DNA of 64,000 bases. Origin: Pseudobdellovibrionaceae bacterium (GTDB lineage Bacteria; Bdellovibrionota; Bdellovibrionia; Bdellovibrionales; Bdellovibrionaceae). The stretch is taken from assembly GCA_019637955.1 (NCBI GenBank), contig JAHBUS010000008.1, positions 124,001 through 188,000 on the forward strand. The letters run 5' to 3'. Made by a program: the position numbers and the translations under genes. The notes beneath the pieces were generated by a model. That model did not search any database and was not told the DNA's origin. It saw only the letters and a program-made list of their open reading frames with translations. Below, piece by piece: positions 13,161-52,004 of this stretch (the stretch's first letter is position 1; each line of letters opens with the position of its first letter).

Positions 13161-13199
13161 CTGAGAAAAATGGCTCACCAATGGTGAGTGGAAGCCGCC
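13161..13199. repeat. Left attachment junction (chromosome / element A)
   Basis: Contains the 15-base direct repeat AAAAATGGCTCACCA (13166-13180) also found at 40126-40140. The first ten bases of its core, AAATGGCTCA, recur at the tRNA-Asn 3' end (51926-51935). CTCACC/GGTGAG flank a three-base centre just right of the core. AGTGGAAGCCGCC at 13187-13199 is the right arm of the attP inverted repeat of element A (left arm at 40112-40124). Confidence 0.8.
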
Positions 13200-13200
13200 A

Positions 13201-24923: not shown

Positions 24924-25145
24924 ATCGCCTCCAGATACTCGGAAGATAATTCTGAAATTCAAAAAGACCGTTACTTGCGGATATCGGATGTTTTCCAGGA
25001 ATATCCGTTCGACACATCCCATCGAAGGTGATTGATGAACCGCCAGGCAGCTTTGGGGTCCAGAAATGATTCACGTTTATCTCTACGTAGACGCGGCTGA
25101 GTTGGTATGCTATATTTCAAGAATCACAAATGGCATTTTATTGCC

Positions 25146-25186
25146 CCTGACGAGGCGAACCGTACCAGGCTACGAAAAGACGGCTC
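25146..25186 (+). ncRNA. Guanidine-III riboswitch (ykkC-III), copy 1
   Basis: 41 bases matching the known class pattern: CC-GACGAGG...CCGTACC-GG...AAAAGACGGC-C. CCTG at the 5' end pairs with CAGG, and GAACCGT with ACGGCTC (one mismatch), giving the two helices of the class pseudoknot. The ribosome site AAGGGAG follows directly and the LysE-family ATG is 12 bases after the aptamer, so ligand binding likely controls translation initiation. It differs from copy 2 (26504) at a single base. Confidence 0.9.
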
Positions 25187-25198
25187 TAAGGGAGTCGT

Positions 25199-25828
25199 AT
25201 GCTTATAAGCATCTTTCTTCAGGGTTTCTTCCTCCAAGCAAGCCTCATTCTCGCACTCGGCGCACAAAACATTTTCGTTCTTAACTCTGGTCTTCGAAGA
25301 GAAAGACACCTACTTGTCGCTCTCGTTTCTTCAGCATGCGACACACTTCTCATATTTTTCGGAGTCCTAGGCGTTGCGACGATCTTTGTCCAAGTTCCAA
25401 TTCTCAAGATTGGTTTAGGAATCGTCGGAGTTGGATTCCTTTTCTTCTACGGCATCTTGAAGCTGAAAGAGGCGAAGAATGGGGTTGAAATATCGCTAGA
25501 CGCAAAGTCTGCAGTTACAACTAAACAAGCGATTATCACGGCTCTGGGTTTTAGTTTGCTAAACCCTCACGTGTACTTGGATACAGTCGTCTTAGTTGGA
25601 GGCTACTCCTCCAAGTTTGCCAACTTGTATGAACGGTTCTTCTTCGGTGCGGGGGCATCAACTTTTTCTACGCTTTGGTTCTTCGCACTAGCACTGCTCG
25701 CTTCAGCAGGCAGTCGTCTTTTGCGAAATCCTAGAGCAATGCGAATTGTGGCTTTAGTTTCAGGGATCATTCTTGTGGCACTCGCAGGAAAATTAGGAAT
25801 AGATGTCGTGGCCTGGATTAAGGAATAA
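25199..25828 (+). CDS. LysE/ArgO-family exporter under guanidine control
   Basis: 209 residues with about six membrane helices. FLQASLILALGAQNIFVLNSGLRRER is the typical first helix of LysE-family amino-acid exporters (FxxGxxxSLILAIGAQNxFVL), and GFSLLNPHVYLDTVVLVGGYS matches the conserved fifth segment (LNPHxxLDTxxLxG). It exports small basic or amide compounds across the inner membrane by proton antiport in known members. Placement directly after a guanidine-III riboswitch suggests that guanidinium or a guanidino compound such as arginine is the substrate. The next gene starts 10 bases after its stop, so both are under the same riboswitch. Confidence 0.88.
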   Translation: MLISIFLQGFFLQASLILALGAQNIFVLNSGLRRERHLLVALVSSACDTLLIFFGVLGVATIFVQVPILKIGLGIVGVGFLFFYGILKLKEAKNGVEISLDAKSAVTTKQAIITALGFSLLNPHVYLDTVVLVGGYSSKFANLYERFFFGAGASTFSTLWFFALALLASAGSRLLRNPRAMRIVALVSGIILVALAGKLGIDVVAWIKE

Positions 25829-26465: not shown

Positions 26466-26503
26466 ATTTAGAGTTCTCATAAAACCATTGGCAACTCATG
26501 CCA

Positions 26504-26544
26504 CCTGACGAGACGAACCGTACCAGGCTACGAAAAGACGGCTC
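26504..26544 (+). ncRNA. Guanidine-III riboswitch (ykkC-III), copy 2
   Basis: Same 41-base architecture as copy 1 with 40 of 41 bases identical (the tenth base is A instead of G). All pairing bases are retained. A purine-rich site CAAGGGGG follows, 12 bases before the SMR ATG. Near-identity suggests duplication within the element and a common ligand response of the two transcription units. Confidence 0.9.
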
Positions 26545-26556
26545 CAAGGGGGTTTT

Positions 26557-26886
26557 ATGTCTACAAGTGTTGCTTGGGTTCTTCTTTTTTTCGCTGGCCT
26601 CCTGGAAATTTGCTGGGCAGTCGGATTGAAATATACCGCAGGCTTTACGAAACTCGTTCCCAGCATTTTCACTCTCACAACTCTAGCAGCAAGTATGGTG
26701 TTACTTGCAAAGTCGAGTCAGGTTCTGCCGATTGGAACTGCCTACGGTGTTTGGGTTGGAATTGGGGCCCTAGGCGCTGCAATTCTCGGAATAGCGCTGT
26801 TCGACGAGTCCGCTTCTCCGCTTCGACTTTTCTTCCTTGCGCTGTTGCTTGTCGCGATAGTTGGGTTAAAGGCGACTTCGAAGTAG
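26557..26886 (+). CDS. gdx: SMR-family guanidinium exporter (SugE/Gdx type)
   Basis: 109 residues in four membrane helices, the size of small multidrug resistance dimers. The conserved proton/substrate Glu is in LLEICWAVGLKYTAGFTKL. The W-A-x-G-L-K pattern after it is typical of the Gdx (SugE) branch, which exports guanidinium, rather than the EmrE drug-pump branch. YGVWVGIGALGAAILG is the third helix. Inner-membrane antiporter working as an antiparallel dimer in known members. The guanidine-III riboswitch immediately upstream independently supports the substrate. Confidence 0.92.
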   Translation: MSTSVAWVLLFFAGLLEICWAVGLKYTAGFTKLVPSIFTLTTLAASMVLLAKSSQVLPIGTAYGVWVGIGALGAAILGIALFDESASPLRLFFLALLLVAIVGLKATSK

Positions 26887-38287: not shown

Positions 38288-38590
38288 ATGGATCGCGGCG
38301 GAGCGGAACGATGTTCCAACAATCAAACAAAGAAATGCAGCAAATGTAGAAGGATGCTGCCGCTATCTGAATTCTATCCGAAGGGCGGACGCCTTAGCTC
38401 TGCATGCCGCGCATGTGAACTTGCGCAGAAAAGGAAGGCGCGGTTAAAAAAGAAATCTCGGAGGAAGAGGAAGCCCGCAAATTTCATCGACCCTAATGCG
38501 ATACGCGTCTTAACTGTGAACCTCCCAGACATTCACAAAGTGAACAACTACTTGGGAGAAATTCAGAATGAAGACACCAAAAACAACTAG
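38288..38590 (+). CDS. CxxC zinc-finger-like protein coupled to recombinase A
   Basis: 100 residues: KKCSKCRRMLPLSEFYPKGGRLSSACRACELAQKRKARLKKKSRRKRKPAN. Two CxxC pairs with a basic tail, the same architecture as the gene before recombinase B (49917), though little identity beyond it. The stop lies 23 bases inside the recombinase gene, so translation is probably coupled. Inferred accessory or directionality factor for the recombinase, which has lost the cysteines of its own zinc-ribbon region. Confidence 0.7.
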   Translation: MDRGGAERCSNNQTKKCSKCRRMLPLSEFYPKGGRLSSACRACELAQKRKARLKKKSRRKRKPANFIDPNAIRVLTVNLPDIHKVNNYLGEIQNEDTKNN

Positions 38591-40181
38591 TTCCGAATTA
38601 TTTGGCGCCCTCTATGGTCGCGCATCTACACAAGAGTTAGCCGAGCGCGAAACTCTTCGACAGCAAAAAAATCTTGGTATCGAAAGTGCCGAACGCCTTA
38701 CCAAGCAGACCGGTAGAAAACATGTTATCAGACACTTTCTGATAGAAGAGACAGGTGTTAGCGGCAGCTCCACAAAGAAAAGGATTAAGTTTCAGGAGCT
38801 ACAACGCCTAGTGAAAGAACAAAAAGTATCTTTCGTAATTGCAAAAGAGATCAGTCGTCTCAGTCGTTCTTTGCGCGACTTTTTGCAATTCTGCGAACTA
38901 TGCCGTGAGCATAAGGTCGCTTTACACATAGGTAATCTTCCAGGCTGCGACCCGAACACGGCGACAGGCCAAATGATGCTCGCGGTAATTGGAGCAATCG
39001 CACAGTTTGAAAGAGAACTTGCAATTGAACGTGTGAAAACTACGGTTCGATCTGCTGCATTTAATAACTTTAAGATTAACGGGAGTCGGCCAGTTCTAGG
39101 TTTCCGTCGAAATCCACAAGAAAGAGGTAGATGGGTTACGATCCCGGGGGAACTTCAGAAAATCGAACTACTGATGCGAGACTTTTTAAGTCATGGCTCG
39201 ATGGCAAAAACTGTGGAAAAGGCAAAAGAGGAAGGGATTACGAAGCTAAGTGGTAAACCTTTTAACTGCACCTCTCTTCGGAGCTATTTCAAAAACAGAA
39301 AGTACATTGGTGAAATGCTCGTCAAAGAAATTGGGAATGATGAGATAAAGAAACCTGTGCGTCTTCCATTTGGCGAAGCGATAGACCGATCATTGTTCGA
39401 AAAGGTGCAGAATCAGCTCGACCAAAATGATGAACTGAAAAGAAAAAATCAGCATCGGCTTGGCAAGCGGATCTATATTCTCCATGGCGTCCTAGTTACC
39501 GAATCCGGTGCAAGATACGCGGGCACTTCGAGTCCAGGGAGGAATAAAGTAAAGTACGCTTACTATGTGGAGAGGAAGACGAACACGAAAGTTGAAGCTG
39601 CACTCTTGGAGGAAAAGGTTCTTGCAAGCCTAGCGAACTCTTTGGCTAGTGAGGAAGCTATGGAGAGTCATACTCAAGAAATCATCAAAAATCACAAGGC
39701 ACAAATTGAAGAACTGTTGAGAGAGTCAGAATCATTAAAGACAGAAATGCTATCCCTCCAGGATCGAGAAATGAAAATCATCTTGGGTCTCACCAACTCA
39801 AATCAAAATATGGGTCCGGATTTGATCGAACTCCTCAATAAGCAGGCTAAAGAAGTCGCGGCAGAAAAAGATCGTGTTTTAACTCGCCAATCCGACGTGA
39901 ACTCGATGCTAGAAGAATTCGAAAGTTTCGACTTGGATCTTAAGAAACACCGTGCACGAGCACACGAAATTATAAAACAGATCAGGAAAGCGGAGCCACT
40001 TCGTCAACGACACTTCATTCGCCAAGTAGTTGAAAAAATTGAACTAAAGAAGACTGGCGAGGTCCGTGTTTATTGGAGATTTGCGAGGGTGTTCACCGCT
40101 ATGGAGGAACAGGTGGCCTCCAGTAAAAAATGGCTCACCACTCAGACGACATCGCTGGCTTGGTGTCCGGACTCAATATAA
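38568..40181 (+). CDS. Large serine recombinase A, N-terminal part (interrupted by its own att site)
   Basis: 537 residues as read. Resolvase domain: LYGRASTQE with nucleophile Ser20, EISRLSRSLRDF (catalytic Arg residues), QMMLAVIGAIAQFERELAIERVKT. Recombinase domain about 175-300 (RPVLGFRRNPQERG, FNCTSLRSYFKNRKYIGEM). Then a zinc-ribbon position without Cys (YILHGVLVTESGARYAGT), and a long coiled coil from about 360 to 480. The frame passes the att core at 40128 (KKWLT) and ends after 13 residues encoded by element B (TQTTSLAWCPDSI). In the circular element it would instead continue with the 155-residue C-terminal part stored at 13180-13647. Confidence 0.92.
   Translation: MKTPKTTSSELFGALYGRASTQELAERETLRQQKNLGIESAERLTKQTGRKHVIRHFLIEETGVSGSSTKKRIKFQELQRLVKEQKVSFVIAKEISRLSRSLRDFLQFCELCREHKVALHIGNLPGCDPNTATGQMMLAVIGAIAQFERELAIERVKTTVRSAAFNNFKINGSRPVLGFRRNPQERGRWVTIPGELQKIELLMRDFLSHGSMAKTVEKAKEEGITKLSGKPFNCTSLRSYFKNRKYIGEMLVKEIGNDEIKKPVRLPFGEAIDRSLFEKVQNQLDQNDELKRKNQHRLGKRIYILHGVLVTESGARYAGTSSPGRNKVKYAYYVERKTNTKVEAALLEEKVLASLANSLASEEAMESHTQEIIKNHKAQIEELLRESESLKTEMLSLQDREMKIILGLTNSNQNMGPDLIELLNKQAKEVAAEKDRVLTRQSDVNSMLEEFESFDLDLKKHRARAHEIIKQIRKAEPLRQRHFIRQVVEKIELKKTGEVRVYWRFARVFTAMEEQVASSKKWLTTQTTSLAWCPDSI
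40112..40158. repeat. Middle attachment junction (element A / element B)
   Basis: Core AAATGGCTCA (40128-40137). Left of it GGTGGCCTCCAGT (40112-40124) is the left arm of attP A. Right of it CATCGCTGG (40150-40158) is the right arm of attP B, whose left arm is CCAGCGATG at 51911-51919. The site is therefore a hybrid of two elements. Confidence 0.8.
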
Positions 40182-40621
40182 CTCTCGAAGCAGTCGTTGA
40201 GCAAGCGCATCAAGATAAAAATTCAAAGAAGATTAGGGCTTTAGCTCGGACCGCATCCACACACGCCGAGATCGCAGCGAAGCTCGGCATCGGTAGGTCC
40301 ACCGTTTCCGAGTCCTTACGACGGAACGGGCTGCGGATTGAAAAGCTCAAGCCTCACTTCGGCCATCCAGGTCATGGCCTCAGGTTTGGATGGCGGGTTG
40401 GGACCAACGGGTTGGAACCGTGTCCGCTTGCGCGACGAGCCATTGACCGCATGATCCGCCTACGCCGGGATGGTCAAACCTATCGTGAAATTGCCGCTAT
40501 CCTTGACGCCGAAGGCTTCCAAACGCTCACCCGTTCCCCTTGGGCTGCCGCTACCGTTCTAGGGATCATCAGGCGCGAGGGTTCTCTAAGTAAGACAAGT
40601 CATGCCCGGAGTCCTCCCTAA
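40130..40621 (+). CDS. C-terminal DNA-binding part of element B recombinase, separated by integration
   Basis: 163 residues beginning at an ATG that is part of the att core (ATGGCTCA). Recombinase B reads ATG GCT CA over the same bases at 51928, so joining gives one frame of about 747 codons. Two HTH-like segments: TASTHAEIAAKLGIGRSTVSESLRRNGL, and QTYREIAAILDAEGFQ followed by SPWAAATVLGIIRREG (Recombinase-domain-like end). Because the core supplies its own ATG, it could also be made as a free 163-residue DNA-binding protein when integrated. No strong ribosome site precedes it. Confidence 0.8.
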   Translation: MAHHSDDIAGLVSGLNITLEAVVEQAHQDKNSKKIRALARTASTHAEIAAKLGIGRSTVSESLRRNGLRIEKLKPHFGHPGHGLRFGWRVGTNGLEPCPLARRAIDRMIRLRRDGQTYREIAAILDAEGFQTLTRSPWAAATVLGIIRREGSLSKTSHARSPP

Positions 40622-40753
40622 ACGCTGTTTGCAGGTTTTGGGACATGTTCCTCGTGAACCCCGCAGATGAATAGGGATGAGTTCTTTGCATGGGCCTGAA
40701 GTCAGTGGGGCAAACGCGCGCCGCACCAGACTCAATCAACCAGAAAGCAGAAG

Positions 40754-41644
40754 ATGATGGAACTTCCAACAAAAGCAGCTTCTTCACTTGAGAGCCGCGC
40801 TCTCGGCATGGCACTCGGACATGCTGTCGGCGACGCTTTCGGAGCAACCCGAGAGTTCGCAGAGCCCGATCCCACTTTCTCACATACCGAAATAGTCGGC
40901 GGCGGCACCTTCGGCTGGCGAGCCGGACAGCCGACCGACGATACCGACCTTGCGATGATAGTCCTTCGTTCGATGCCTAGTCGAACAGAGTTCGATTTGA
41001 AGGCCATGCGCTCGCTCTTGATCGAATGGCATGAATGCGAACCCATCGACATAGGCGTGACCATCCGACAGGCGATCGTGCGATTGAAGCGTGGAGCTGC
41101 GCTTGGAGGAGATCCAGAGACTCACAGCGAGGCGAACGGATCGCTGATGCGGGTTGCTGGCCTCTCTCTGCTGGATCTGCCGTGGATGCCTCCATTCTTA
41201 AAAATCTTAGAGGACCAAACACGACTCACCCACGGGCATGAGAACTGCGTCCTTGCCGACCGCATCCTCATTTCCGGATTGCGGGCTGGGTTGCGCGGCG
41301 GAGATCGCAAGGAAGTCATCCGCGCGATGCGGCTCTCGGCCCACGGTAACAAATGGCCGTTCGATATTTCGGGTGTAGCGACTCTCTCGTGGGACCAATT
41401 GCCCACGACCGGCTGGGTCTGCGATACGCTTCATGCGGCGTTCTGGTCGATCGTGAACTGTAGATCTTTCGAGGAAGCAATGGTTAAACTCGCCGCTCGC
41501 GGCGGGGATGCTGACACGACGTGTGCGGTCGCTGGGGCCCTGTTCGGATCGTTCAGTGGCGTCGATAATCTCCCTACTCGATGGCTGAACGTCATCGAAG
41601 CAAAAGAAGAAATCGAACACCTCGTCGAGTCACTGCTGCGATAA
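40754..41644 (+). CDS. ADP-ribosylglycohydrolase (DraG/ARH family), element B
   Basis: 296 residues. ALGMALGHAVGDAFG is the family N-terminus. QPTDDTDLAMIVLRSM carries the TDDT metal site. KLAARGGDADTTCAVAGALFGSFSGVDNLP is the C-terminal GGDADT site. Hence both binuclear Mg ligand groups are intact. Not closely similar to the element A enzyme at 28128 beyond these motifs. It hydrolyses ADP-ribose linkages. It may reverse host or phage ADP-ribosylation. Expressed alone, 132 bases after the recombinase fragment. Confidence 0.9.
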   Translation: MMELPTKAASSLESRALGMALGHAVGDAFGATREFAEPDPTFSHTEIVGGGTFGWRAGQPTDDTDLAMIVLRSMPSRTEFDLKAMRSLLIEWHECEPIDIGVTIRQAIVRLKRGAALGGDPETHSEANGSLMRVAGLSLLDLPWMPPFLKILEDQTRLTHGHENCVLADRILISGLRAGLRGGDRKEVIRAMRLSAHGNKWPFDISGVATLSWDQLPTTGWVCDTLHAAFWSIVNCRSFEEAMVKLAARGGDADTTCAVAGALFGSFSGVDNLPTRWLNVIEAKEEIEHLVESLLR

Positions 41645-41696
41645 CGCTCGGTCGGTTCACACTGAAGATTCATGTTGTTTCTGCCGATAAGTAACC

Positions 41697-42002
41697 ATGC
41701 AACGTGTTCGTTTCAAATCCTACTGGGCACTGGCGACAAACGGAAAGCTCGTTCAGTTCGACACGAGCACCTTCGATGAGAGCAACCTACAGGAAATGCT
41801 GGCCCAGCCCCCTGAGCTTAAAGCTTTGTGCTTTCAAGCGGCTCATCAAATTCACGGCAAGTACGCTTACTCTCTATTCAAATCATCAGATCCTGAAGAT
41901 ATGAAACGCCTGATTGCTTTCGTGAATCTTGGCTTCGCCAAGGCCCTGGCCTCCCTCGGGTACAGATGTCTGCCGAAGGCCGATGAGATCGAGTTCCTTT
42001 AG
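41697..42002 (+). CDS. Small protein, unknown
   Basis: 101 residues: MQRVRFKSYWALATNGKLVQFDTSTFDESNLQEMLAQPPELKALCF and LIAFVNLGFAKALASLGYRCLPKADEIEFL. Compact alpha/beta without signal, resembling a small KTSC-like or immunity-type protein, but no family is certain. It follows the ADP-ribosylglycohydrolase by 52 bases on the same strand. Ends just before the convergent small gene at 42059. Confidence 0.5.
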   Translation: MQRVRFKSYWALATNGKLVQFDTSTFDESNLQEMLAQPPELKALCFQAAHQIHGKYAYSLFKSSDPEDMKRLIAFVNLGFAKALASLGYRCLPKADEIEFL

Positions 42003-42058
42003 TGGGGCCTGAGCTATCCTTCGCCTCCGATGCGACAGGCGTTCGTAGCAAGGTTTCA

Positions 42059-42358
42059 TTAAGATCGAAAAGAGAAAACGTCCTCAAAAGCAAACTCAAC
42101 GTGAAATCCTTCAGCTTCGATAAGATCCAAAAAACCGGGAGTCTGAAGAAAGCGCATCCTCTCCCATTCGCCAGCGTCCACCGCCTCGGTGATGTACTCC
42201 CACCGCAAGGCCCAGGCGGCTGCGACGGAGATTGGTGTTGCTCGTGGCATCAGGAGAATCTTCTGAAGTAGGTCCCGTCCGCCATCACCATCAAGTATGT
42301 CTGCCTTGCGGGTGGTCCCATCTTCACGGCAGATAACGACTGGCCTCCAAAACTTCAG
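42059..42358 (-). CDS. Small protein with probable CTG start, last gene of HTH-lipoprotein operon
   Basis: The frame is open for about 100 codons. GGAGG at 42363-42367 sits four bases before a CTG at 42358, giving MKFWRPVVICREDGTTRKADILDGDGGRDLLQKILLMPRA and onward. The first ATG (42250) has no ribosome site and would remove the coherent N-terminal third. The 3' part reads WALRWEYITEAVDAGEWERMRFLQTPGF. Follows the coiled-coil gene directly (stop at 42367). No family recognised. CTG starts are rare, so the assignment needs experimental confirmation. Confidence 0.45.
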   Translation of the reverse strand: MKFWRPVVICREDGTTRKADILDGDGGRDLLQKILLMPRATPISVAAAWALRWEYITEAVDAGEWERMRFLQTPGFLDLIEAEGFHVEFAFEDVFSFRS

Positions 42359-42366
42359 ATCGCCTC

Positions 42367-43941
42367 CTATGCCGCGCGTGTTTCCGCCCGCGATACGCTG
42401 TTCAGGTAGGCCGCTGTCGTCGTCAACTGACTCACCAACTTTTCGTTGATGGATCCAGCGTCCGTGCCGATGTGGTTCTGCACGGATTTCAAAGCGTTGC
42501 GCTCCATTGCGCTCATCGACGAGTTGTTTGCTTGCTGACCAAGCGCGGACATTACGCGAGCAACCTCTGCGTTCGTCTCTTTAACGGCTTGAAGTGCCTT
42601 CAATGATTCGCCTTGATCGCGAAGCTCATCGAGTGTTGAGGTTGCAACGGCTGCGACATCGCTGAACGACTGGCCGAGTCGTTTTCTTGCTGCGAGCCCA
42701 CACCATCCCGTTCGGAAGATCACGTCAGGCGTCAGAGCCTGAAAGCGAGATGCCGAAGCCACGATGATCTCCGCAACTTTCTCCGCACGACTGCTTGCAA
42801 CCAAAACCTCGACGACGCTCGCATGAGCCCCATCAAGAACTTTGAAGGCGTCGATCCTTTGACAGAGCGACTTCAGGGTCGCGGAGTTGGCCTCAGAAAA
42901 CAGCACCGTCATGACTTCCATGTCTTTCCGAGCGGCAAGCCAGAACGCAGCCTCAAACTCCGCGTCGCGAAGCGGACCCTTTGGGAGATGAAGAGCGATT
43001 CGCTCAAGAAGGCCGAAGACCGTCGTTAGCCGACCATGCGGCTCCTTCAGGGTCCCAAGACTCGGAAAATTTCCGAGATCGAACAAAGTTGAACTTAACG
43101 AGCGGCGAACGAGCATCGTCAAGGCCAGGACGATGCCGCCGACACCGAGGAAGGCGCAACCAAAGGCGACAAAAAAGTTCAGTCTCGTCGGCACCCAAGC
43201 GGCCAAAGTCATGAGCACGATCGCACCCATCAGGACACGCGGTGATGGAAAGACTCGCAGAAGGCCCAGCGCCTTACGCATACTCGTCACACTGAACGCG
43301 CCAACCTGCGCCGATTTCTTTTGGATGGATTCGGCCCGCTCCAAGAGCTTCGTGGCCTTCTCGATTTCATCTTGACCAAACTTGATGGCTTTCAGATCGG
43401 CTTCTGCCGTGAGCTTTCTCCAATCGTCAACCGCCCGGGAAAACGGCAAGCCGACAACCACTTCGGAAGCAACACCCGCGAAGTCTTCAATCGAAAGGCC
43501 GTACTTCTCCATCAGCGCGAGTTTCATTTGATCCGGAGGGCAAGTCTGATCTGGAAGAAGAAAGCCACACTCGTTCTTGATGAGCGTGTCACGGAAGCTC
43601 TGCGCGGCCTCTTCGACCGTAAGACTTCTTTGAAGAGCGATGTTCTCGACGGTTCGTAACTGATCGAGATGGATGCCAAGATTTTTTTGTCGAATCATCT
43701 CGATGCGGGCGAGCTTGGACTGTCGTTCTTCCTCGACGGCGACGGCATGTCGTCGTTGACGTTCAACGGACTCCGCTTGCTCGCGGCGATCTCGTTCGCG
43801 TTCTTCGGAAGCCATCCGTTGCTGCTCAATTTGTCTCAATGCCGCCAGATCACGAGCCGCCGAGTCTAAGTCCATCGCCGCTTTAACCTTGGCTCCGCCC
43901 ACCAGAATGTCAGTAAAAAGATTGTCATTTTTCTTCGGCAT
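42367..43941 (-). CDS. Coiled-coil protein with central membrane hairpin
   Basis: 524 residues from ATG 43941 (MPKKND), one base after the previous stop. Residues about 30-100 form a long charged coiled coil (LRQIEQQRMASEERERDRREQ...). Two hydrophobic segments near 240-285 (VLMGAIVLMTLAAWV and FFVAFGCAFLGVGGIVLALTMLV) make a hairpin in the inner membrane. The C-terminal 200 residues are soluble helices. Topology resembles envelope-anchored scaffold proteins. No known family. Part of the operon with the lipoprotein and secreted protein, so an envelope-spanning assembly is conceivable (inference). Confidence 0.6.
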   Translation of the reverse strand: MPKKNDNLFTDILVGGAKVKAAMDLDSAARDLAALRQIEQQRMASEERERDRREQAESVERQRRHAVAVEEERQSKLARIEMIRQKNLGIHLDQLRTVENIALQRSLTVEEAAQSFRDTLIKNECGFLLPDQTCPPDQMKLALMEKYGLSIEDFAGVASEVVVGLPFSRAVDDWRKLTAEADLKAIKFGQDEIEKATKLLERAESIQKKSAQVGAFSVTSMRKALGLLRVFPSPRVLMGAIVLMTLAAWVPTRLNFFVAFGCAFLGVGGIVLALTMLVRRSLSSTLFDLGNFPSLGTLKEPHGRLTTVFGLLERIALHLPKGPLRDAEFEAAFWLAARKDMEVMTVLFSEANSATLKSLCQRIDAFKVLDGAHASVVEVLVASSRAEKVAEIIVASASRFQALTPDVIFRTGWCGLAARKRLGQSFSDVAAVATSTLDELRDQGESLKALQAVKETNAEVARVMSALGQQANNSSMSAMERNALKSVQNHIGTDAGSINEKLVSQLTTTAAYLNSVSRAETRAA

Positions 43942-43942
43942 C

Positions 43943-44653
43943 TTACTTCCCAAACTTCTTCGCGAGGCCGTCGAAACATCGTGGATTCGTGTCGGGGAAT
44001 CGGTTCGTCGCAGTCACCGACCGGCGAGGGAAGCAGCGTTCGCAAGTCGCCTTGTCCTTATAGAAACCCGCGACACCGAAGGCTGCGTTGTCGAACGACG
44101 CCGGGCACGAAAGAAACAAGATACCTTTGTCCGCGTAGAGTTCTTCGACCGAGCAGCCATGTTTTAGGTGCTCATCGGCAGACGCAGGCTTGCATGGATT
44201 TTTGGAAGACTCGTAGGCCGTTCCCGCAAAAGTCCAACTGAATCCAGACCAGTCCGAGGTTGCTTTGATTTCCGTCACCATCTTTTCGTAGCGGAGGCGG
44301 TCAGCTTCCGTCTTTCCCTTTTGATCGACGGACTTCTGGGACTTCGATTTCGCTTCGGCATCCTTGAGCCAAGCCATGTCGTAGTTGGTTCCATCGAACT
44401 TCTTCAGGCGTCCTGCTGCGGTATCCGCCATCGAAGGGTAAACCTTCGCATAGGAACCTTCGAGGACTCCACACGCACAGGTCTTGTGAAGATCCAAAAA
44501 CTCAAGCGCTCGGGCTTTGTCTTCTACACCCTTGATCGGGCCGAAGCTGCGCGTGAGTTCTTTCGCCTTCGCAACGCAGGCTTGAGGATCACAAGCAAGT
44601 GCCGGGACAGCCCAAGACAGAATCAAAACCGCCATCATCTTAGTGGTTTTCAT
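43943..44653 (-). CDS. Secreted Cys-rich protein
   Basis: 236 residues with signal peptide MKTTKMMAVLILSWAVPALA. Mature protein has about ten cysteines (CDPQAC, CACG, NPC, HGCS, LSCP, TCERCFP, RCF), so it is probably stabilised by disulfides outside the inner membrane. Lys-rich charged middle. No recognised family. Its start overlaps the upstream lipoprotein gene by 14 bases, and its stop is one base before the coiled-coil gene's ATG. Confidence 0.6.
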   Translation of the reverse strand: MKTTKMMAVLILSWAVPALACDPQACVAKAKELTRSFGPIKGVEDKARALEFLDLHKTCACGVLEGSYAKVYPSMADTAAGRLKKFDGTNYDMAWLKDAEAKSKSQKSVDQKGKTEADRLRYEKMVTEIKATSDWSGFSWTFAGTAYESSKNPCKPASADEHLKHGCSVEELYADKGILFLSCPASFDNAAFGVAGFYKDKATCERCFPRRSVTATNRFPDTNPRCFDGLAKKFGK

Positions 44654-45353
44654 CAGTAGATCCTTCCTTCATTTCTTCGGCGCTCCGCCGAAGGGTATCG
44701 AAATCTTTTTGACGTTGATCTTCGGATGTCGCGGGAGCGCGGTTCAGAGCACGAACCCGCTTGGCCCTCTCCTCGGATTCGAGCATGTGGCTGGCGAGGG
44801 GCTCAAGAACCGGCGGGCGGTTAAACTCTTTCGGGAAGTTTTCCATCAGCGCGTTGGTCACTTGATCCCAATCGGGATCTCGTCCGATCGCCCACGGCAC
44901 CGAGTTTTCACCCTCAACGGAATACTCCACGCGCCCGTCGAGTGCGTTCACGAACGAAAGCGTCTGGCGGCAATATTTGCGGTATTCACCGAAGAAGAGG
45001 CTCTGCGCTTGCCAGCAACTTGACGAGGGTACGATCACGCCAGCAGCACCGGTCATCTTACCGAGATGCGCCAGCCTCTCCGCATCGCTGAACCGCTCGA
45101 AATCGTTGCCAGGACGAAACTGGCGATCCTGCTCGCGGATCGCGGCTTCCCATCCGGGACCGCGATCGACGACGACGAACTTGGATCGACCGTTGAGCGT
45201 CAGTGCCTTCTGAATCTGAGCCACGTCGCCTGGCGAAACCGTTCCCCCATAGACGAAGACACGCGTCGCAGGATCGGTGCTTGTGTTGCGTAGAACCTTG
45301 GTCGAAGAACAACCGGCAAGTATCAGGAGAATCAGTGCGATGAAGTTTTTCAT
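44640..45353 (-). CDS. Lipoprotein coupled to HTH gene
   Basis: 237 residues with lipoprotein signal MKNFIALILLILAGC. The mature part, TRVFVYGGTVSPGDVAQIQKALTLNGRSKFVVVDRGPGWEAAIREQDRQF and GKMTGAAGVIVPSSSCW, resembles CsgG/TolB-N-like lipoproteins (beta-alpha-beta with a conserved hydrophobic VVVDR). This similarity is weak. Its ATG overlaps the HTH stop (ATGA), like the pair in element A. A scaffold or channel role in the envelope is possible but unproven. Confidence 0.6.
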   Translation of the reverse strand: MKNFIALILLILAGCSSTKVLRNTSTDPATRVFVYGGTVSPGDVAQIQKALTLNGRSKFVVVDRGPGWEAAIREQDRQFRPGNDFERFSDAERLAHLGKMTGAAGVIVPSSSCWQAQSLFFGEYRKYCRQTLSFVNALDGRVEYSVEGENSVPWAIGRDPDWDQVTNALMENFPKEFNRPPVLEPLASHMLESEERAKRVRALNRAPATSEDQRQKDFDTLRRSAEEMKEGSTDENH

Positions 45354-45637
45354 TTCAGCCTCTCGATGTGAACACGGTAGCTACGTTTCTCGTCCTCGAA
45401 GGTGACGGCGCTGATAATTTTGCGATCGTCCTCTTTTCCGAGCAGGAGTTGTTCGAGGCTGATACCGAGGTAGGCTGCAAGCTTCGCGACCGCCTTGATG
45501 TTCTTGAGGCTTGGAAGGCGTCGAGCCGCGACCCAGTCGGCGAGAAGCGATTTGCTGATCCCAAGTTCACGCGCAATTTTCGATAGGTTCTGACCTTCGA
45601 GTCGTTCTCGAAGGATGTCGGATATTTTTGTTTCCAT
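45350..45637 (-). CDS. Xre-type HTH regulator of lipoprotein operon B
   Basis: 95 residues from METKISDILRERLEGQNLSKIARELGISKSLLADWVAARRLPSLKNIKAVAKLAAYLGISLEQLLLGKEDD: a Cro/C1 HTH with the LGISLEQLLLG closure, as in 32148 (FGVSMEYLLFG). The start could also be the ATG at 45658 (AAGGTGCGGAAC before it). First gene of the five-gene unit down to 42059. Probably autoregulates. Upstream 45638-45731 contains the end region of the resolvase gene. Confidence 0.72.
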   Translation of the reverse strand: METKISDILRERLEGQNLSKIARELGISKSLLADWVAARRLPSLKNIKAVAKLAAYLGISLEQLLLGKEDDRKIISAVTFEDEKRSYRVHIERLK

Positions 45638-45731
45638 AAGAATTTTTTCGGCTCGCATGTTCCGCACCTTGACCGTTATCCGATTCGCCAACCAGATCGT
45701 TCGAACTTGCGATCAAACCAGCGTCCCAAAA

Positions 45732-46424
45732 TCATCTGTTTTCAGTCCCACTTTTGATGCCGGTTTTGACGCGAGCTTTTTCCTGATTTTCTTGGGGAGG
45801 GTTTTGATCCACCCGGCAAATCCGAAGGACAGTGCTTTTTGAGATGTTCAAAGACTTGGCGGTCTGCCGAATACTCGATCCCGAGGCTCGCAGTTTCTTT
45901 ACGGCGTCAATGAGATCCGGATTCACCTTCGATGGCCGCCCGCACTTCCAGCCGGTTGTCGCAGCGGCGGCCTTCCGAACTGCAAGTGCCGTCCGGATTC
46001 GATCGCGCAGCAAGTCGCGTTCGATCGTCACGAGCAGCCCAATCATGGTCACCATGCCCTTTGCGAATGGCGTGTCGTTGAACTCTATGCCCTCGCGGAT
46101 TGAGACGAGCGACACGCCGACCTGTTGGAGTTCATGAAGCGTGTTGAGAAGATGCCGAACGTCACGAGCTATCCGCGAGAGTTCCATAACGATCAAGACC
46201 TTGAATGTTCCGCGCTTCGCATCCGCGAGCATTTCGTCGAGGCCTTTACGGCGTTCGGTCGCACCCGAAATACCCTCATCGGCGTAGACCTTGACGAGAT
46301 CAAAGCCACGAGATTCGGCGACCTGCTTGATCGGCTCGATCTGATTTGCGAGATCCTGACCGTGTACAACTGTGCTGATACGACCGTAGGCCGCAGCCCG
46401 TAGTCGTTTTGCTGTGATTGTCAT
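45732..46424 (-). CDS. Small serine recombinase (resolvase/invertase)
   Basis: 230 residues. Catalytic domain: AAAYGRISTVVHGQDLANQ with Ser17, YADEGISGATERRKGLDEMLADAKRG, MELSRIARDVRHLL (Arg pair), FAKGMVTMIGLLVTIERDLLRDRIRTAL (E helix). The C-terminal HTH is SSIRQTAKSLNISKSTVLRICR. Typical of Tn3 resolvases and DNA invertases, acting at short sites. It may resolve multimers of element B. No inverted gene segment is evident nearby. The ATG overlaps the preceding gene's stop (TAATG). Confidence 0.92.
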   Translation of the reverse strand: MTITAKRLRAAAYGRISTVVHGQDLANQIEPIKQVAESRGFDLVKVYADEGISGATERRKGLDEMLADAKRGTFKVLIVMELSRIARDVRHLLNTLHELQQVGVSLVSIREGIEFNDTPFAKGMVTMIGLLVTIERDLLRDRIRTALAVRKAAAATTGWKCGRPSKVNPDLIDAVKKLRASGSSIRQTAKSLNISKSTVLRICRVDQNPPQENQEKARVKTGIKSGTENR

Positions 46425-46756
46425 TACGCGGCTTCCTTCACAAGAAGACGACGACTTACCGAAGGCGGCGTGTTCGCTAAGATTGCTTCGGTAGCTTCAG
46501 CACCGATCACTTCGGCGCAGACGGATTTCCAAGGAACATTTCGGCGTTCCACAGTCTTGATCTGCACGGCGTGGCGGCTGATAACTGTCGCACCGGCTTC
46601 GATCTGGCTGAGGAGGGAATTTTCTAATTCGACAAGGGCGTTCTCGGCCATTTCAAGCCTACGCTTTTGCGCATCGTATGCCCTACGGAGAGCCAGCAAA
46701 TGCTCAAGCTCGCGATCGGTTATAGCCGTTTTGGTCAACACTCTTTGGGTTCTCAA
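46424..46756 (-). CDS. Small coiled-coil protein preceding the resolvase
   Basis: 110 residues. An N-terminal coiled coil (DRELEHLLALRRAYDAQKRRLEMAENALVELENSLLSQIEAG) is followed by a small domain, KTVERRNVPWKSVCAEVIGAEATEAILANTPPSVSRRLLVKEAA. No family assigned. Translationally coupled to the resolvase (TAATG), so it may be a partner or modulator. Its promoter lies in the palindromic region 46796-46841. Confidence 0.6.
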   Translation of the reverse strand: MRTQRVLTKTAITDRELEHLLALRRAYDAQKRRLEMAENALVELENSLLSQIEAGATVISRHAVQIKTVERRNVPWKSVCAEVIGAEATEAILANTPPSVSRRLLVKEAA

Positions 46757-46795
46757 AAGACCTCCATCGTTCGATCTAGCTCCATCTTGACATTT

Positions 46796-46841
46796 TGCAT
46801 TATATTTTGCAATATGAACTGCAAATGCGTAATATAATGCA
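46796..46841. promoter_or_regulatory. Palindromic divergent promoter/operator
   Basis: TGCATTATATT (46796-46806) and AATATAATGCA (46831-46841) are perfect 11-bp arms. Each contains a consensus TATAAT on one strand, so the two -10 boxes face outward to the RHH gene (46864) and to the coiled-coil/resolvase genes (46756). TTGCA/TGCAA is nested inside. Probable binding site of the RHH protein. Confidence 0.6.
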
Positions 46842-46863
46842 GATGAGCGGTCGGAGGTGAGAC

Positions 46864-47052
46864 ATGTCTAAGATTGAGGCAAAAGAAATTCTGAAGCGCA
46901 TAAGAAGCAAAGAAAAACCCGAGAAGGCAAATGTCACCTTCAGGCTGTCTACAAATCTCATGGACAACTTCAAGAAAGCCTGCGCGAAACAGGGAGTAAC
47001 ACCAACTGCCGTTCTCGAAGAGATGATCCAGTCTTTCCTACAGAGCCTTTAG
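46864..47052 (+). CDS. Ribbon-helix-helix protein
   Basis: 62 residues. KANVTFRLSTNLMDNFKKACAKQGVTPTAVLEEMIQSFLQSL fits the CopG/MetJ-like ribbon-helix-helix: a beta strand, an alpha helix, then a turn and helix. Small DNA-binding dimer. GGAGGTGAGAC precedes the ATG. Its position beside a perfect palindrome suggests autorepression and control of the divergent resolvase genes. The 4-base overlap with the convergent gene at 47049 is only at the ends. Confidence 0.75.
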   Translation: MSKIEAKEILKRIRSKEKPEKANVTFRLSTNLMDNFKKACAKQGVTPTAVLEEMIQSFLQSL

Positions 47053-48104
47053 CGGCGCTTAGATGAAAGGCGTGCGGGAGAATACATCGAGAGCATAAGC
47101 CCCATAAAGAAGTGCTCAAACAACTGCCGTCTAAGCTTTCGCGCCCTTGCGCTTCGGCCACGAACTTGGGTCTGGATGCCCGCGTAACGGAGAGTGCTCA
47201 GTAGATATTTTTGCCGAGATTTTCCTCGAAGACAGCTTAAGTTCGATCGCGCCAACGCGTTGATGAGCAGAAGCACTGACCGGATTTCCCTAGGCCGATC
47301 TGTGATGTCTTTCGTTTGAAACCACCAACCTTTACGGTGTACTGCCCATTGGACGTGTCTGTATCCGCGACGCACTTTACTCGCTGATAGATCATCTTGA
47401 TCGTAGTCCTTAAACCTTGTCTCACGAGTCACTACAGTTTCAACCTGCCCAACCGAGGGAGCGTCGATCGTCTGTACGCTAAATGAAACACCCTGACTTC
47501 GTACCTGGAAAATTTCTTGTGAGTTTGGAGCTACGATCGACCTTGCCATGCCTCGCGAAAGAGACGCTCCACCAATGACTTCGGCTGAACCCAAGTATGA
47601 ACTCGGGACCGATGCCGCGATAACCAATCCATTCAATAGATCGTTCAACCTGCCTGCCTGAACACGGTCGGACACCGTATTGCCCTTTGACGCTACGATT
47701 GGAAACGCAAGTACGCCGTCGGCCAAGCCACGAGCCAACTCTCTACACTCCCGCGCGGAAAGCCTGTGGGAAACGTCTCGTCGCAAGCTTGAAGATCCGT
47801 CCCAAGCCTTTGCGCTTTGAAACGCCGGGGCCAAACGAAAAAGTCCAATGACGGATCGCGAATGACCTTTGGAACATCGGACGGTAAAGATGCTAGGTCG
47901 CGCATGGTCGGTACGAAGCTTCCAATAGGTCCGAAACTCCGAGGTCTTCCAAGCACCTTGGTCGCAGGTGTCACAGGCCGGAAACCCACCGAAAACTGCG
48001 GTCGCCAACTCGATGAACTCAAAGATCACCAAGTCGTCTTGGCAAGATTCTTTACTATCATTCGTTTTGCTCCGGGGCCTCCGGACAGCTTTTTCTTTTC
48101 TCAA
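47049..48104 (-). CDS. Unknown protein with cysteine cluster
   Basis: 351 residues. FPACDTCDQGAWKTSEFRTYWKL and SIFTVRCSKGHSRSVIG contain C-x2-C and C-x-x-G-H groups that could bind one zinc. The C-terminal third is strongly basic (KSRQKYLLSTLRYAGIQTQVRGRSARARKLRRQLFEHF). This resembles proteins acting on nucleic acid, but no catalytic motif is clear. Convergent with RHH gene. Upstream 48105-48444 is noncoding. Confidence 0.55.
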   Translation of the reverse strand: MRKEKAVRRPRSKTNDSKESCQDDLVIFEFIELATAVFGGFPACDTCDQGAWKTSEFRTYWKLRTDHARPSIFTVRCSKGHSRSVIGLFRLAPAFQSAKAWDGSSSLRRDVSHRLSARECRELARGLADGVLAFPIVASKGNTVSDRVQAGRLNDLLNGLVIAASVPSSYLGSAEVIGGASLSRGMARSIVAPNSQEIFQVRSQGVSFSVQTIDAPSVGQVETVVTRETRFKDYDQDDLSASKVRRGYRHVQWAVHRKGWWFQTKDITDRPREIRSVLLLINALARSNLSCLRGKSRQKYLLSTLRYAGIQTQVRGRSARARKLRRQLFEHFFMGLMLSMYSPARLSSKRR

Positions 48105-48444
48105 GGCTCTAAACTCACTGAGAAAAGCCTATATTTATACTGATACTTTTTGAAGTTTCTATTGATACATGACCATCAGGTCAGTTCGATTTCTTTTCCT
48201 ATCCGACAGAAAATGGAGGTGAAAGGCAGGAAGAAAGCTTGGAACTAGTTAACTTGGGACTTTGCACAAAACCCGGAAACCCCGGACGAAGACTCGGGCA
48301 ATGCCAGATGATTGCTCCCCGCGTCGGCTTCCAAGTCATTGATATTTCGAGGACTCATTCCCACGTCTATCCAGATCAAACCCGTCTAGAGAGTACCTTA
48401 GGTACATACCTCATCTTGTCCCTCACAAGACATGCGTGGTTCGC
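48105..48444. promoter_or_regulatory. Intergenic region between divergent genes; possible origin or operator
   Basis: Contains an AT-rich stretch with two GATAC copies about 24 bases apart (48140-48170), GC-rich CCGG-containing runs (48270-48295), and a perfect palindrome GTACC-TTA-GGTAC at 48393-48405, 39 bases before the ATG at 48445. No convincing gene: the 69-residue plus-strand ORF at 48239 has no ribosome site. A replication origin beside a replication-like gene is a possibility only. Confidence 0.3.
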
Positions 48445-49920
48445 ATGAAGACCAACCCCATGCTCGACACCGAAGACGGTTTCGTCTCCTTACCACTCGC
48501 TGATGTCCAAGCATTTGGATTCGATCTGATCAGCGCCAGCTTTTGCTTCAAACCAACATCATCGCAACAGCGAACCCATCTTGAAAATATGTCGATGACC
48601 TCGGCGTTTAACGTCTTTCTTCAAAGTACAAAGAGGCTTCGTCTTCAGAAAAAAGATGGAGACGAGTGGTTTGACCTTCGGGAGCATCTTCCCCTCAAAA
48701 AGCTTTATGGTTTCAGGGTCACCAACTGCTCGAACTTAAAATTTTTTATTAAGTCCAACTACAACGATGCCCCCTATCTACACGCAGAGTGGAGCATCCC
48801 CAGGTACTCCGAAGCCATCGCAGGTCCGGCCTTGATCGACAAGTCCCTCGCGCGTCGTATCCGGCAGGAACTAAGAAGCACCTCAAAGAAGAGTCAGACA
48901 AATCTAATCCTTAAAAGCATGGTGCGATACCTCGAAGAGACGCCCACGCACCTGTTGAACGTGGGGCTTACTACCAGTTTCGATCAACTGCTTGGGTTCA
49001 CGCGGGCTTTCTTAGATTCCGTCCCCGCGCTGGCAAGTTGTGAGATCACCATAGACATAGAAAGCGTCGAAGCCATGCTCGATCTTTTGATGCCCAAGGA
49101 CGTGATCTCCCAGGGGGCAGTTCAATCAATCATGCAGAAGAGCCTTCACTTGGTGAAGGATCTCTCCGGTTTCGAGATTTCCGGTATTGCCTCGAACAAT
49201 GCCCAAGAGGATCGTCCGCTTACTACAACCTTTCATGACCATTTGGCCTTCCATCGAAGGTCGTTCAAGTTCAAAACATACTCGAAGGGAAATTACGGTG
49301 GAACCAGTCATCTTCGGGCGGAGTTCAAAGACAAGGAGAAATACAGACTTGGAGTTTGCAAGAGCGGCCTCGAAGCAGCAGCGGCTTTAAAGCGCAGCCG
49401 ATCTTGGAAGAGCATCTCTCTGGTGTCTGAAAGCTTCTCAAAACGCCTGGAAGCCAAGCTACAAGCTGAAGACGTTACGCCAAGCATCGCGCTGATCGAA
49501 CGAGTCCTGCGAGAAGCCGGTTTGTCAAAACCAGAGATCACAGCACTTCTTCGCGGAACGTCGCTGGAGATCAAACCCGAGATCAACCTTTCTCTCGTGC
49601 GAACTTGCTGTGATTTCAAGAAAAGAACGTCGGCCCGCCTGAAGCCTTCCCTTCAAAACCTTGTGTTAGGAGAACTGGCGGGGCGCGAGCGTTTTGAATC
49701 CAGCGTTAAGTCTCCGTACAAAATGCCAAGAATTTTGGCGGACAAGCCGCATCAGTTCAGCAAGGCTTTGTGCATCGCCCGCACTCGCGGGATCGAACAA
49801 GTAACTGCCCAAAACGTGCGGTCCCAAAACCCTCCGTGGGTTCTGGGCAAAAGTGCGCTTTCTGATTTCATCAAAGAGTTCCGCCGATGGTGGGCGCACT
49901 TCAGCGAGAGGTCATCATGA
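48445..49920 (+). CDS. Possible replication protein, 491 residues
   Basis: Large soluble protein. Segments PYLHAEWSIPRYSEAIAG, FDHLAFHRRSFKFKTYSKGNYGGTSHLRAEFKDKEKYRLGV-like (FKFKTYSKG...LRAEFKDK) resemble the substrate and K-x-Y-x-K...LRxE motifs of phage/plasmid replication initiators. Element A's protein at 21001 has a similar LKVYPKPNGIRMELQIRK segment. Otherwise unrecognised. Its stop overlaps the CxxC gene start (ATGA), so replication and recombination genes are likely one transcript. Start at ATG 48445; a GTG at 48436 is an alternative. Confidence 0.5.
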   Translation: MKTNPMLDTEDGFVSLPLADVQAFGFDLISASFCFKPTSSQQRTHLENMSMTSAFNVFLQSTKRLRLQKKDGDEWFDLREHLPLKKLYGFRVTNCSNLKFFIKSNYNDAPYLHAEWSIPRYSEAIAGPALIDKSLARRIRQELRSTSKKSQTNLILKSMVRYLEETPTHLLNVGLTTSFDQLLGFTRAFLDSVPALASCEITIDIESVEAMLDLLMPKDVISQGAVQSIMQKSLHLVKDLSGFEISGIASNNAQEDRPLTTTFHDHLAFHRRSFKFKTYSKGNYGGTSHLRAEFKDKEKYRLGVCKSGLEAAAALKRSRSWKSISLVSESFSKRLEAKLQAEDVTPSIALIERVLREAGLSKPEITALLRGTSLEIKPEINLSLVRTCCDFKKRTSARLKPSLQNLVLGELAGRERFESSVKSPYKMPRILADKPHQFSKALCIARTRGIEQVTAQNVRSQNPPWVLGKSALSDFIKEFRRWWAHFSERSS

Positions 49921-50189
49921 CCTCAAAAGTTTGTTCTGGTTGCCGCATCATGAAGGGACTTCAGAAGTTCCATGTGCAAGCGCGTGGTCTTCACGGCAGG
50001 GAAAGCCGTTGCAAGGAGTGCGTTGGAATGAGAAAAGGCCGTCGCCAAGGGCAGCAACGAAGACGCCGAAGCGACGACTACATTTTCAAATCAGATACGG
50101 TTGGCCTGCCTTCTCCGGAATCGCTACAAGATGTCGCGTTTAGTATGGCTGAAACTTTGAAAGGAGTTTTGGACGATGAGAAGTTTTAA
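49917..50189 (+). CDS. CxxC zinc-finger-like protein coupled to recombinase B
   Basis: 90 residues: MTSKVCSGCRIMKGLQKFHVQARGLHGRESRCKECVGMRKGRRQGQQRRRRSDDYIF. Two CxxC pairs about 25 residues apart and an Arg-rich segment, like the protein before recombinase A. Overlaps the upstream gene (ATGA) and the recombinase (14 bases). AGAGG lies five to six bases before the ATG. Inferred to be an accessory or directionality factor of the recombinase. Confidence 0.7.
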   Translation: MTSKVCSGCRIMKGLQKFHVQARGLHGRESRCKECVGMRKGRRQGQQRRRRSDDYIFKSDTVGLPSPESLQDVAFSMAETLKGVLDDEKF

Positions 50190-51993
50190 CAAGCTATCCA
50201 GGAAAGAACAGAAGAAGATCATCGAGGAGACATGCAACTCTCTCCAGCAACTTGGTGAATACTACCAATCCAACTGGAAGCCCGTCGATGAAAGCTGGCC
50301 CATCGTTGATGGCGCGGCCTACGTTCGCCTTTCAACTCCAGAACAATTTCTCGTCGATCGCGGTTCAGCGGAGCAGCAAGTCCACATCGCTGTGGACGAA
50401 GCTCGCAGCCGTTCGCAATACGACAAGATGAACTACCGGATCACGGAGTTCTTCATTGAGCGACCCGTCACTGGAAAATCTGAAAGCCGCGAACAGCTAG
50501 ATCGACTCCAACGTGCGATCGGCAAGAAAAAAGTTCGATTTGTGGTGATCAAAGAACTCGCCCGCATCTTCCGCGAGTCGGGTCTGTGGAAGCAGTTTTT
50601 TAAGCACTGCCAAGCGAGCGAGTGCGAAATCATCATACGATCCTTTCCGTTCAACCCGAATGATCCAACACAGATCCTTCAACTCGACATCCTCGCCGCC
50701 TTCGCCGAATACGAGTCCAGCGTTAATTCGAAGCGGGGACGCGAAAGCCACTTTTCCTCGATGCAGTCTGCTGGGAAATTTAATTCGACTCACAAACTCC
50801 TCGGCCTCGATCAGCTTGAGATCAACGGAACTCCCAAGGTCGGCCTCTACACCCCCAACAAGGCGGAGTTAGAAGTCGTGATCTGGATCATGCAGACGTT
50901 CGTGTCCTACGGCTCGTATCAAGTGACGCTCGCAAAGATCGACGAGCGGATGATAAAAACGAAGACCGAAAAAAACTTCGGCAAACACTCGCTCACAAAT
51001 CTTCTCACGAACAAAAAGTACATCGGCTGCTGGGAGGTTAACCTTAAAAACAAGGGCAAAAACGAACACAAGTTGATGCCCTACGAGCGGTATCTCAAAG
51101 TTTCCTTGCCTCATGGTTGCGTGGTTCCCCCAGAACTCTGGGAGGCTGTGCAAGCAACGATCGTCCGCCTCAAGGGAAGCAAATCAAAAAACACACGACT
51201 GGATCGCATCTATCCCCTTTCGGGTTTGCTGGAATATGAAGATGGTTCTGCGTTCCAAGGAAATGGCTCTTGGGGCAAATCAAAGACAAAAAGATTGAAC
51301 TACTACCACTGTCCAAGAAAGAAACTCCGCCTCCCTGCGGAACTCGTCGAAGCCGAGGCCTTGGCGATGGCCAGTAGCGTACTCTCCAAGTCCGATGCCT
51401 TCAAAGACAGTCTGAAAAGCCGTTTGCGCAACTCGAAAACAGCTTCCGAGCATCTCCAGAATCAGGCGGAGCACTTGCGGCGGGAGATTGGTGGTCTACA
51501 GCAACAACAGGTCGATCTTGATAGACGCTTGGACTTTCTCCTTTCGGACGGTAAGTCCGATGACTCTGCACTTACGGACATCAGGAACGACTTCATCAAC
51601 GAGCGCAGAAAAATAAAAAAGGAAGTCACTGATCGCGAGGCCGCAATCACTAAGATTGGGGAGAAGCGCGACCTGCTACTTTCCCAAGGGGTGAGTCTGA
51701 AATCGCTGACCTCAAACGCTAGGGAGGTTGTCCGCCTGGTTGCAACCAACGATCCCGCCGCTCTCAAGAACGCTTACAAGCAGCTTTTTAAAAAAGTCCT
51801 CGTGGGCAAGGACGAGAAAACAGGGACGTGGACTCTGAAGTTCCTCTTCAAAGACCAATTCAGCGAAAGCATTGAGGAATTTGCAAAAGATGTTAACGGT
51901 ACGGACAAGACCAGCGATGAGAAAGAAATGGCTCAGGAGGAGGGACTCGAACCCCCGACCAAGCGGTTAACAGCCGCTTGCTCTACCGACTGA
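50176..51993 (+). CDS. Large serine recombinase B, N-terminal part (ends inside tRNA-Asn)
   Basis: 605 residues as read. About 45 residues precede the resolvase domain: GAAYVRLSTPEQ with nucleophile Ser53, KELARIFRESGLWKQFF, DILAAFAEYESSVNSKRGRE. Recombinase domain about 190-300 (THKLLGLDQLEING, FGKHSLTNLLTNKKYIGCWE). The zinc-ribbon position (LSGLLEYEDGSAF...YYHCPRKK) has lost most cysteines. Coiled coil about 400-510. From residue 585 the sequence is the att core (MAQ), then translation of tRNA-Asn antisense (EEGLEPPTKRLTAACSTD). In the circle it would continue into the 163-residue part at 40130. Confidence 0.92.
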   Translation: MRSFNKLSRKEQKKIIEETCNSLQQLGEYYQSNWKPVDESWPIVDGAAYVRLSTPEQFLVDRGSAEQQVHIAVDEARSRSQYDKMNYRITEFFIERPVTGKSESREQLDRLQRAIGKKKVRFVVIKELARIFRESGLWKQFFKHCQASECEIIIRSFPFNPNDPTQILQLDILAAFAEYESSVNSKRGRESHFSSMQSAGKFNSTHKLLGLDQLEINGTPKVGLYTPNKAELEVVIWIMQTFVSYGSYQVTLAKIDERMIKTKTEKNFGKHSLTNLLTNKKYIGCWEVNLKNKGKNEHKLMPYERYLKVSLPHGCVVPPELWEAVQATIVRLKGSKSKNTRLDRIYPLSGLLEYEDGSAFQGNGSWGKSKTKRLNYYHCPRKKLRLPAELVEAEALAMASSVLSKSDAFKDSLKSRLRNSKTASEHLQNQAEHLRREIGGLQQQQVDLDRRLDFLLSDGKSDDSALTDIRNDFINERRKIKKEVTDREAAITKIGEKRDLLLSQGVSLKSLTSNAREVVRLVATNDPAALKNAYKQLFKKVLVGKDEKTGTWTLKFLFKDQFSESIEEFAKDVNGTDKTSDEKEMAQEEGLEPPTKRLTAACSTD

Positions 51994-52004
51994 GCTACTC
52001 CTGA
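51929..52004 (-). tRNA. tRNA-Asn(GUU), attachment target
   Basis: 76 bases including encoded CCA. Acceptor stem TCAGGAG pairs perfectly with CTCCTGA. Discriminator G. Anticodon loop CTGTTAA gives GUU. The att core overlaps its last seven bases (TGAGCCA) and integration keeps the 3' end intact. Transcription now runs past the CCA antisense into recombinase B instead of its own terminator. Confidence 0.95.

Follow-up and report, generated by a model that had tools for sequence, protein, structure and literature searches.

Two integrated elements lie in tandem at the 3' end of one tRNA-Asn gene in the window, a 64,000-nt stretch of contig JAHBUS010000008.1 of assembly GCA_019637955.1 (positions 124,001-188,000 of the forward strand; all coordinates are window positions), and each carries a large serine recombinase gene, its integrase, with a detached C-terminal fragment at the element's opposite end. 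Element A spans 13168-40127 and element B 40128-51925. Three exact plus-strand copies of AAATGGCTCA bound them: one at the junction of the chromosome with the left end of element A (13168-13177), one between the two elements (40128-40137), and one at the right end of element B (51926-51935), where it runs into the 3' end of tRNA-Asn(gtt), the integration target, predicted on the minus strand at 51929-52004 and kept whole. This 10-bp core, at which all joins described below are made, is part of the 3' end of the tRNA gene. In their integrated forms, integrase A (38568-40181, plus strand) has 537 amino acids and integrase B (50176-51993, plus strand) has 605, the final 21 residues of the latter being antisense tRNA (MAQEEGLEPPTKRLTAACSTD). 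The detached C-terminal extensions (henceforth ext), also on the plus strand, are ext A (13168-13647; 159 codons past the core) and ext B (40130-40621; 163 amino acids).

Joining each integrase at the core to the left end of its own element gives a single long reading frame. Integrase B reads the core as ATG GCT CA, and 50176-51935 followed by 40138 onward makes exactly 747 codons, as the original prediction had it for the open reading frame (ORF) at 40130. Integrase A reads the same ten bases in another frame (AAA TGG CTC), again as predicted, and 38568-40137 followed by 13178 onward makes 679 codons. Past the 40128 core the matching frame stays open for 163 codons and the other two end after 17 and 23; past the 13168 core the matching frame stays open for 159 codons and the other two end after 17 and 5. 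Swapped joins fail, since integrase B run into the left end of element A meets a stop about 6 codons on, and integrase A run into the left end of element B after 17. The claim that attP lies inside the recombinase coding sequence is thus borne out by exact frame joins in both elements.

We then matched lone ext ORFs to same-strand integrases lying downstream of them, fixed the frame of each partner by homology, and sought a shared tRNA 3' end. In each of the 26 pairs a shared stretch of 6-26 nt extends through the TGG of a tRNA 3' end, and each of the 26 is in frame; two of the pairs share one integrase (G068) and four rest on a 6-nt core. Their targets comprise at least nine kinds of tRNA (Asn, Asp, Glu, Gln, Arg, Pro, Met, Val, and Ala), three of the 26 having been identified from the core in place of a complete tRNA gene. 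Because one phase is the commonest, we shuffled ext among the integrases: at most 22 of 26 came out in frame, and none of 200,000 shuffles reached 26. At the tRNA-Asn core all three phases are in use, with integrase and ext matched each time. The cores found at tRNA 3' ends in the 26 elements fit site-specific integration between an attP and an attB that have a short core in common. Read at the level of sequence, these joins show attP to lie in the integrase gene with ext in frame, ext to be lost upon integration, and the integrase to be left intact afterwards.

The arrangement is not peculiar to the window but, judged by homology, belongs to one integrase family across Bdellovibrionota, which are bacteria of the predatory type. 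A search with an ext profile detected ext in 40 of the 66 same-family genomes and, among 291 sampled across the phylum, in 137, nearly always as lone ORFs of 150-250 codons, and the hosts of ext-bearing elements are Bdellovibrionota. Related integrases with a named host come mostly from that phylum too (Bdellovibrionaceae, Bacteriovoracaceae, and Oligoflexia), with further ones in Chloroflexi, Planctomycetota, Omnitrophota, and genomes that bear the label Lysobacteraceae. In 46 of 82 related integrase ORFs the 3' end is close to, or overlapped by, a tRNA or tmRNA gene. No ext-bearing integrase was found in phage records (searched with integrase A only) or in the A5 scan of viral contigs, and a tblastn search of plasmid records with joined integrase B returned four weak partial matches and no ext-bearing integrase. 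An empty-site check by way of the gene to the left of element A found that this flank is not conserved among relatives. Two lone ext ORFs near tRNA-Asn without an integrase (L014, 1349-1864; L016, 1750-2217) suggest remnants of lost or decayed elements. A short type of ext, of about 90 codons and with one helix-turn-helix (HTH), accompanies Leu-targeting integrases, with which it is in frame, and is at times present twice (L189 at 1092 and 8143; L185 at 606; contig G312:C2, L316-L318).

Do the two elements of the window represent two inventions? The original prediction held that the C-terminal parts share only their layout and that two recombinases had evolved the split independently. Neither view survives: an ext profile built without ext B recovers ext B with an E-value of 1.1e-16 (Z=1000), and a direct blastp comparison of ext A with ext B gives 2e-4, so the extensions are homologous, and integrases A and B, though diverged, belong to a single Bdellovibrionota family. 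On the integrase tree the phase requires five changes, and ext changed with the integrase each time; likewise, the distances between integrases are correlated with those between ext copies (Mantel r 0.69, 0 of 5000 permutations). The pairing of the 40130 part with recombinase B and not A, by contrast, was correctly foreseen. Only the B join is in frame, and in a genome of another genus (G083:C3; L080, L081, and L082) the two lineages of element form a tandem at tRNA-Asn whose order is opposite to that of the window, the A-type element adjoining the tRNA gene. The closest match to ext B is the ext of the B-type element there (E-value 9e-16), and the closest to ext A is that of the A-type element (51% identical). 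Since the likenesses follow the element types of that genome, the assignment of the 40130 part to recombinase B holds independently of the window.

The proposal that the split is under selection is likewise supported, by the 26 of 26 elements in frame and by an ext ratio of nonsynonymous to synonymous substitution rates (dN/dS) of 0.19, 0.06, and 0.16 in three pairs of 52-87% identity, with dS saturated in two of them. Most ext copies have no ATG ahead of the HTH, which makes translation of ext on its own unlikely. The low dN/dS, the correlation of integrase with ext, and the usual lack of an ATG together point to purifying selection that acts on ext within the full-length protein of the circular form.

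In both integrases a Resolvase catalytic domain precedes a Recombinase domain (PF00239 and PF07508; E-values 1.4e-25 and 5.8e-9 in A, 1.3e-15 and 3.3e-13 in B), and both are serine rather than tyrosine recombinases. Each ext has an HTH (HTH_23 in ext B) followed by the first half of the Recombinase domain, the HTH and PF07508 matches of ext A both being under Pfam's own cut-offs; the second HTH, taken in the original prediction for something like the end of that domain, in fact matches its start (profile positions 6-52 of 102). An integrase profile without ext aligns to YokA of SPbeta over most of its length (profile 67-508 on chain 62-516 of 545), which argues that ext supplements an enzyme complete in itself. 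In the AlphaFold2 model of L130, a contiguous homolog of 730 residues (mean predicted local distance difference test score, pLDDT, of 79), an ordered integrase extends to about residue 517, a disordered stretch covers 518-582 (pLDDT about 30), and the ordered helical domains of ext lie beyond. This model matches 9dxh with an E-value of 1.2e-16 over 561 columns, coiled coil included. The att-like core, or junction codons, falls at about residue 560, within the disordered linker, so that the recombination site appears to be encoded where the protein sequence is free. On the model, the integrase minus ext is a protein that keeps all its parts, catalytic, recombinase, zinc-ribbon, and coiled-coil. 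In integrase B the cysteines of the zinc ribbon are degenerate. A fold search with ext alone gave weak matches only, to bipartite HTH domains (Pax6, E-value 4e-3, template modelling score 0.33), the confidence of the model being low.

Contiguous homologs, which the original prediction had called for, were found in one Oligoflexia genome (G167), where each of three different integrase-ext ORFs (738, 767, and 793 codons) has AATGGGGT, a sequence resembling the tRNA-His 3' end of relatives, precisely where integrase and ext meet. These ORFs may be circles or junctions between same-phase tandem elements. Other candidates fell away: the ORFs of G005:C46 (784 amino acids) and G068 (579 amino acids) lie at tandem junctions of same-phase elements, where the upstream integrase is fused to the ext of the next element, and that of G029:C100 (771 amino acids) runs into a stretch of N. 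Since same-phase tandem arrays give such chimeric ORFs, a fusion of a 40130-type part to integrase A would not be decisive.

A small conserved gene overlaps the start of the integrase gene in these elements. In the group targeting tRNA-Asn, -Asp, and -Glu it encodes a basic zinc-ribbon protein of about 100 residues with the pattern CxxC-CxxC, as at 38288-38590 ahead of integrase A and, by a homologous gene, at 49887-50189 ahead of integrase B (both plus strand), and it is kept in at least nine other elements. In the group targeting tRNA-Met, -Arg, -Gln, -Val, and -Pro the partner has about 70 residues and ends in an AT-hook-like KRGRPxK. These overlapping genes are the best candidates for directionality factors, the one ahead of integrase A being a candidate for an accessory factor as well.

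The sequence shows that on the circle the integrase gene would read through attP into ext, and that integration at a tRNA 3' end relocates ext to the opposite end of the element, the integrase acquiring a short antisense-tRNA tail. We propose that the full-length enzyme is made only from the circle. The ext-bearing form would then be the integration form, with ext binding the arms of attP or attB, and the loss of ext would end integration, by stopping re-integration or by resetting the direction, and leave an integrase of normal size; this truncated integrase would probably serve attL x attR excision together with the small partner encoded directly upstream. The integrase gene would thus both report and set the state of its own element. 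To this reading as a whole, in which a circle-only form integrates and the loss of ext ends integration and leaves a probable excision enzyme, we assign a probability of roughly 58%. Its more specific version is tentative and somewhat short of an even chance: that the full-length form integrates and the truncated form excises, that the state of the DNA and not a separate factor alone sets the direction, and that same-phase arrays swap ext.

Several points weigh against it. The activities given to the truncated and full-length forms are predictions from sequence. The contigs of the Oligoflexia genome with contiguous ORFs are linear and have no terminal overlap, so the circle is not directly seen there. 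For related integrases that overlap tRNA-Asn or tRNA-Gln in Chloroflexi, Planctomycetota, and Omnitrophota, no ext was found within 10-60 kb, from which it appears that an attP in the gene is not always coupled to ext, and in one Leu-targeting group the ext is of another kind and shorter, at about 90 amino acids. In canonical serine integrases the enzyme without its factor integrates and the enzyme with the factor excises; were ext factor-like, the roles of the two forms would be reversed. Ext would then be a built-in directionality factor, the full-length form excising and the truncated form integrating newcomers at the occupied tRNA gene and so building arrays. Arrays are indeed common among these elements, and PDB chain 9dxd, whose entry names YokA linked to its factor YotN, indicates that a factor-integrase fusion can be built, but the full-length form would exist only where nothing is there to excise, and the separate small partner gene is better placed as the factor, which makes such a role for ext very improbable.

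A different possibility, unlikely but deserving of attention, is that the integrase is suicidal, the truncated form being inactive and the element leaving only through the full-length integrase of another element acting in trans. The architecture is that of the archaeal SSV-type integrases, in which, as here, attP lies in the integrase gene, integration splits the gene to the element ends and tRNA genes are the targets; their split forms are inactive, rescue in trans has been reported, and the type has been called exclusively archaeal (PMC8371274). Tandem arrays and same-phase chimeric junctions (G005:C46, G068, and G083) could supply a full-length integrase, and the solo ext remnants (L014 and L016) suggest stranded elements. 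However, the archaeal enzymes are tyrosine integrases (Phage_integr_3 type), cut in such a way that the catalytic domain is split off; the serine integrase of the present elements loses only an added DNA-binding domain, and its truncated form keeps all the parts of a complete serine integrase. That completeness, and the seeming absence of ext from relatives in other phyla, would equally suit an incidental layout in which attP merely landed in the gene, ext is dispensable and both forms act alike; against this, which we consider quite improbable, stand the frame kept in 26 of 26 pairs through several frame changes, the purifying selection on ext and its coevolution with the integrase. Finally, the integrated element might produce ext as an independent protein, a DNA-binding regulator in its own right, given that the phase ATG GCT CA draws an ATG from the core (element B of the window, G061, and G083a), but the other phases mostly offer no ATG ahead of the HTH and the upstream flank is whatever chromosome is there, and we give this hardly any credence.

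Besides the archaeal integrases, the closest precedent is found in Dehalococcoides, where the 3' end of DsiB, an ssrA-specific serine recombinase, overlaps the att site in the tmRNA gene; its authors considered in 2011 that it is perhaps fully functional only on the circle or beside an island giving the 3' fragment (PMC3146451). DsiB resembles the present integrases in being a bacterial serine recombinase with its 3' end over att and in having a second small serine recombinase nearby (PMC3146451), but it is CcrB-like, its 3' fragment was neither identified nor joined, and no C-terminal HTH domain was described, whereas here the fragment is in frame 26 times. One relative of the present integrases, L188, is from a Dehalococcoides sp. 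To our knowledge, the SPbeta integrase gene is not split by attP. The SPbeta integrase YokA/SprA with its factor YotN/SprB (PDB 9dxd and 9dxh) is the closest solved structure to the integrase part and is without ext. In the integration-dependent immunity of mycobacteriophages such as BPs, att lies within a coding gene and integration alters the C-terminus and the behaviour of the product, but that gene encodes the repressor and not the integrase (PMC4557955). Our search of the open-access literature turned up no account that identifies the severed fragment in a family of bacterial serine integrases. Self-splitting integrases, hitherto regarded as exclusively archaeal and tyrosine-type, have a widespread bacterial serine counterpart in which the enzyme stays whole and a DNA-binding module is lost. 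The family offers a natural system for studying the directional control of serine integrases and a possible source for genome engineering, with integrases aimed at many tRNA genes that change themselves after use, and the arrangement accounts for the recombinases with antisense-tRNA peptide ends and the lone HTH proteins of 150-200 amino acids in these genomes.

A small resolvase/invertase accompanies several elements (45732-46424, minus strand, PF00239 and HTH_7, inside element B; L013, 5904-6539; L017, 13233-13859), as DsiA does beside DsiB. Element B carries, just within its bounds, an ADP-ribosylglycohydrolase gene as cargo (40754-41644). Element A also has a tyrosine recombinase gene (23527-24495) with an 84-bp repeat pair nearby (25126-25209 and 26484-26567, 81% identical), possibly a nested element. 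At 18271-20949 it encodes a DNA polymerase A-like protein with a 3'-5' exonuclease domain, which a 717-codon ORF on contig G167:C159, adjoining a contiguous integrase-ext gene, resembles by eye.

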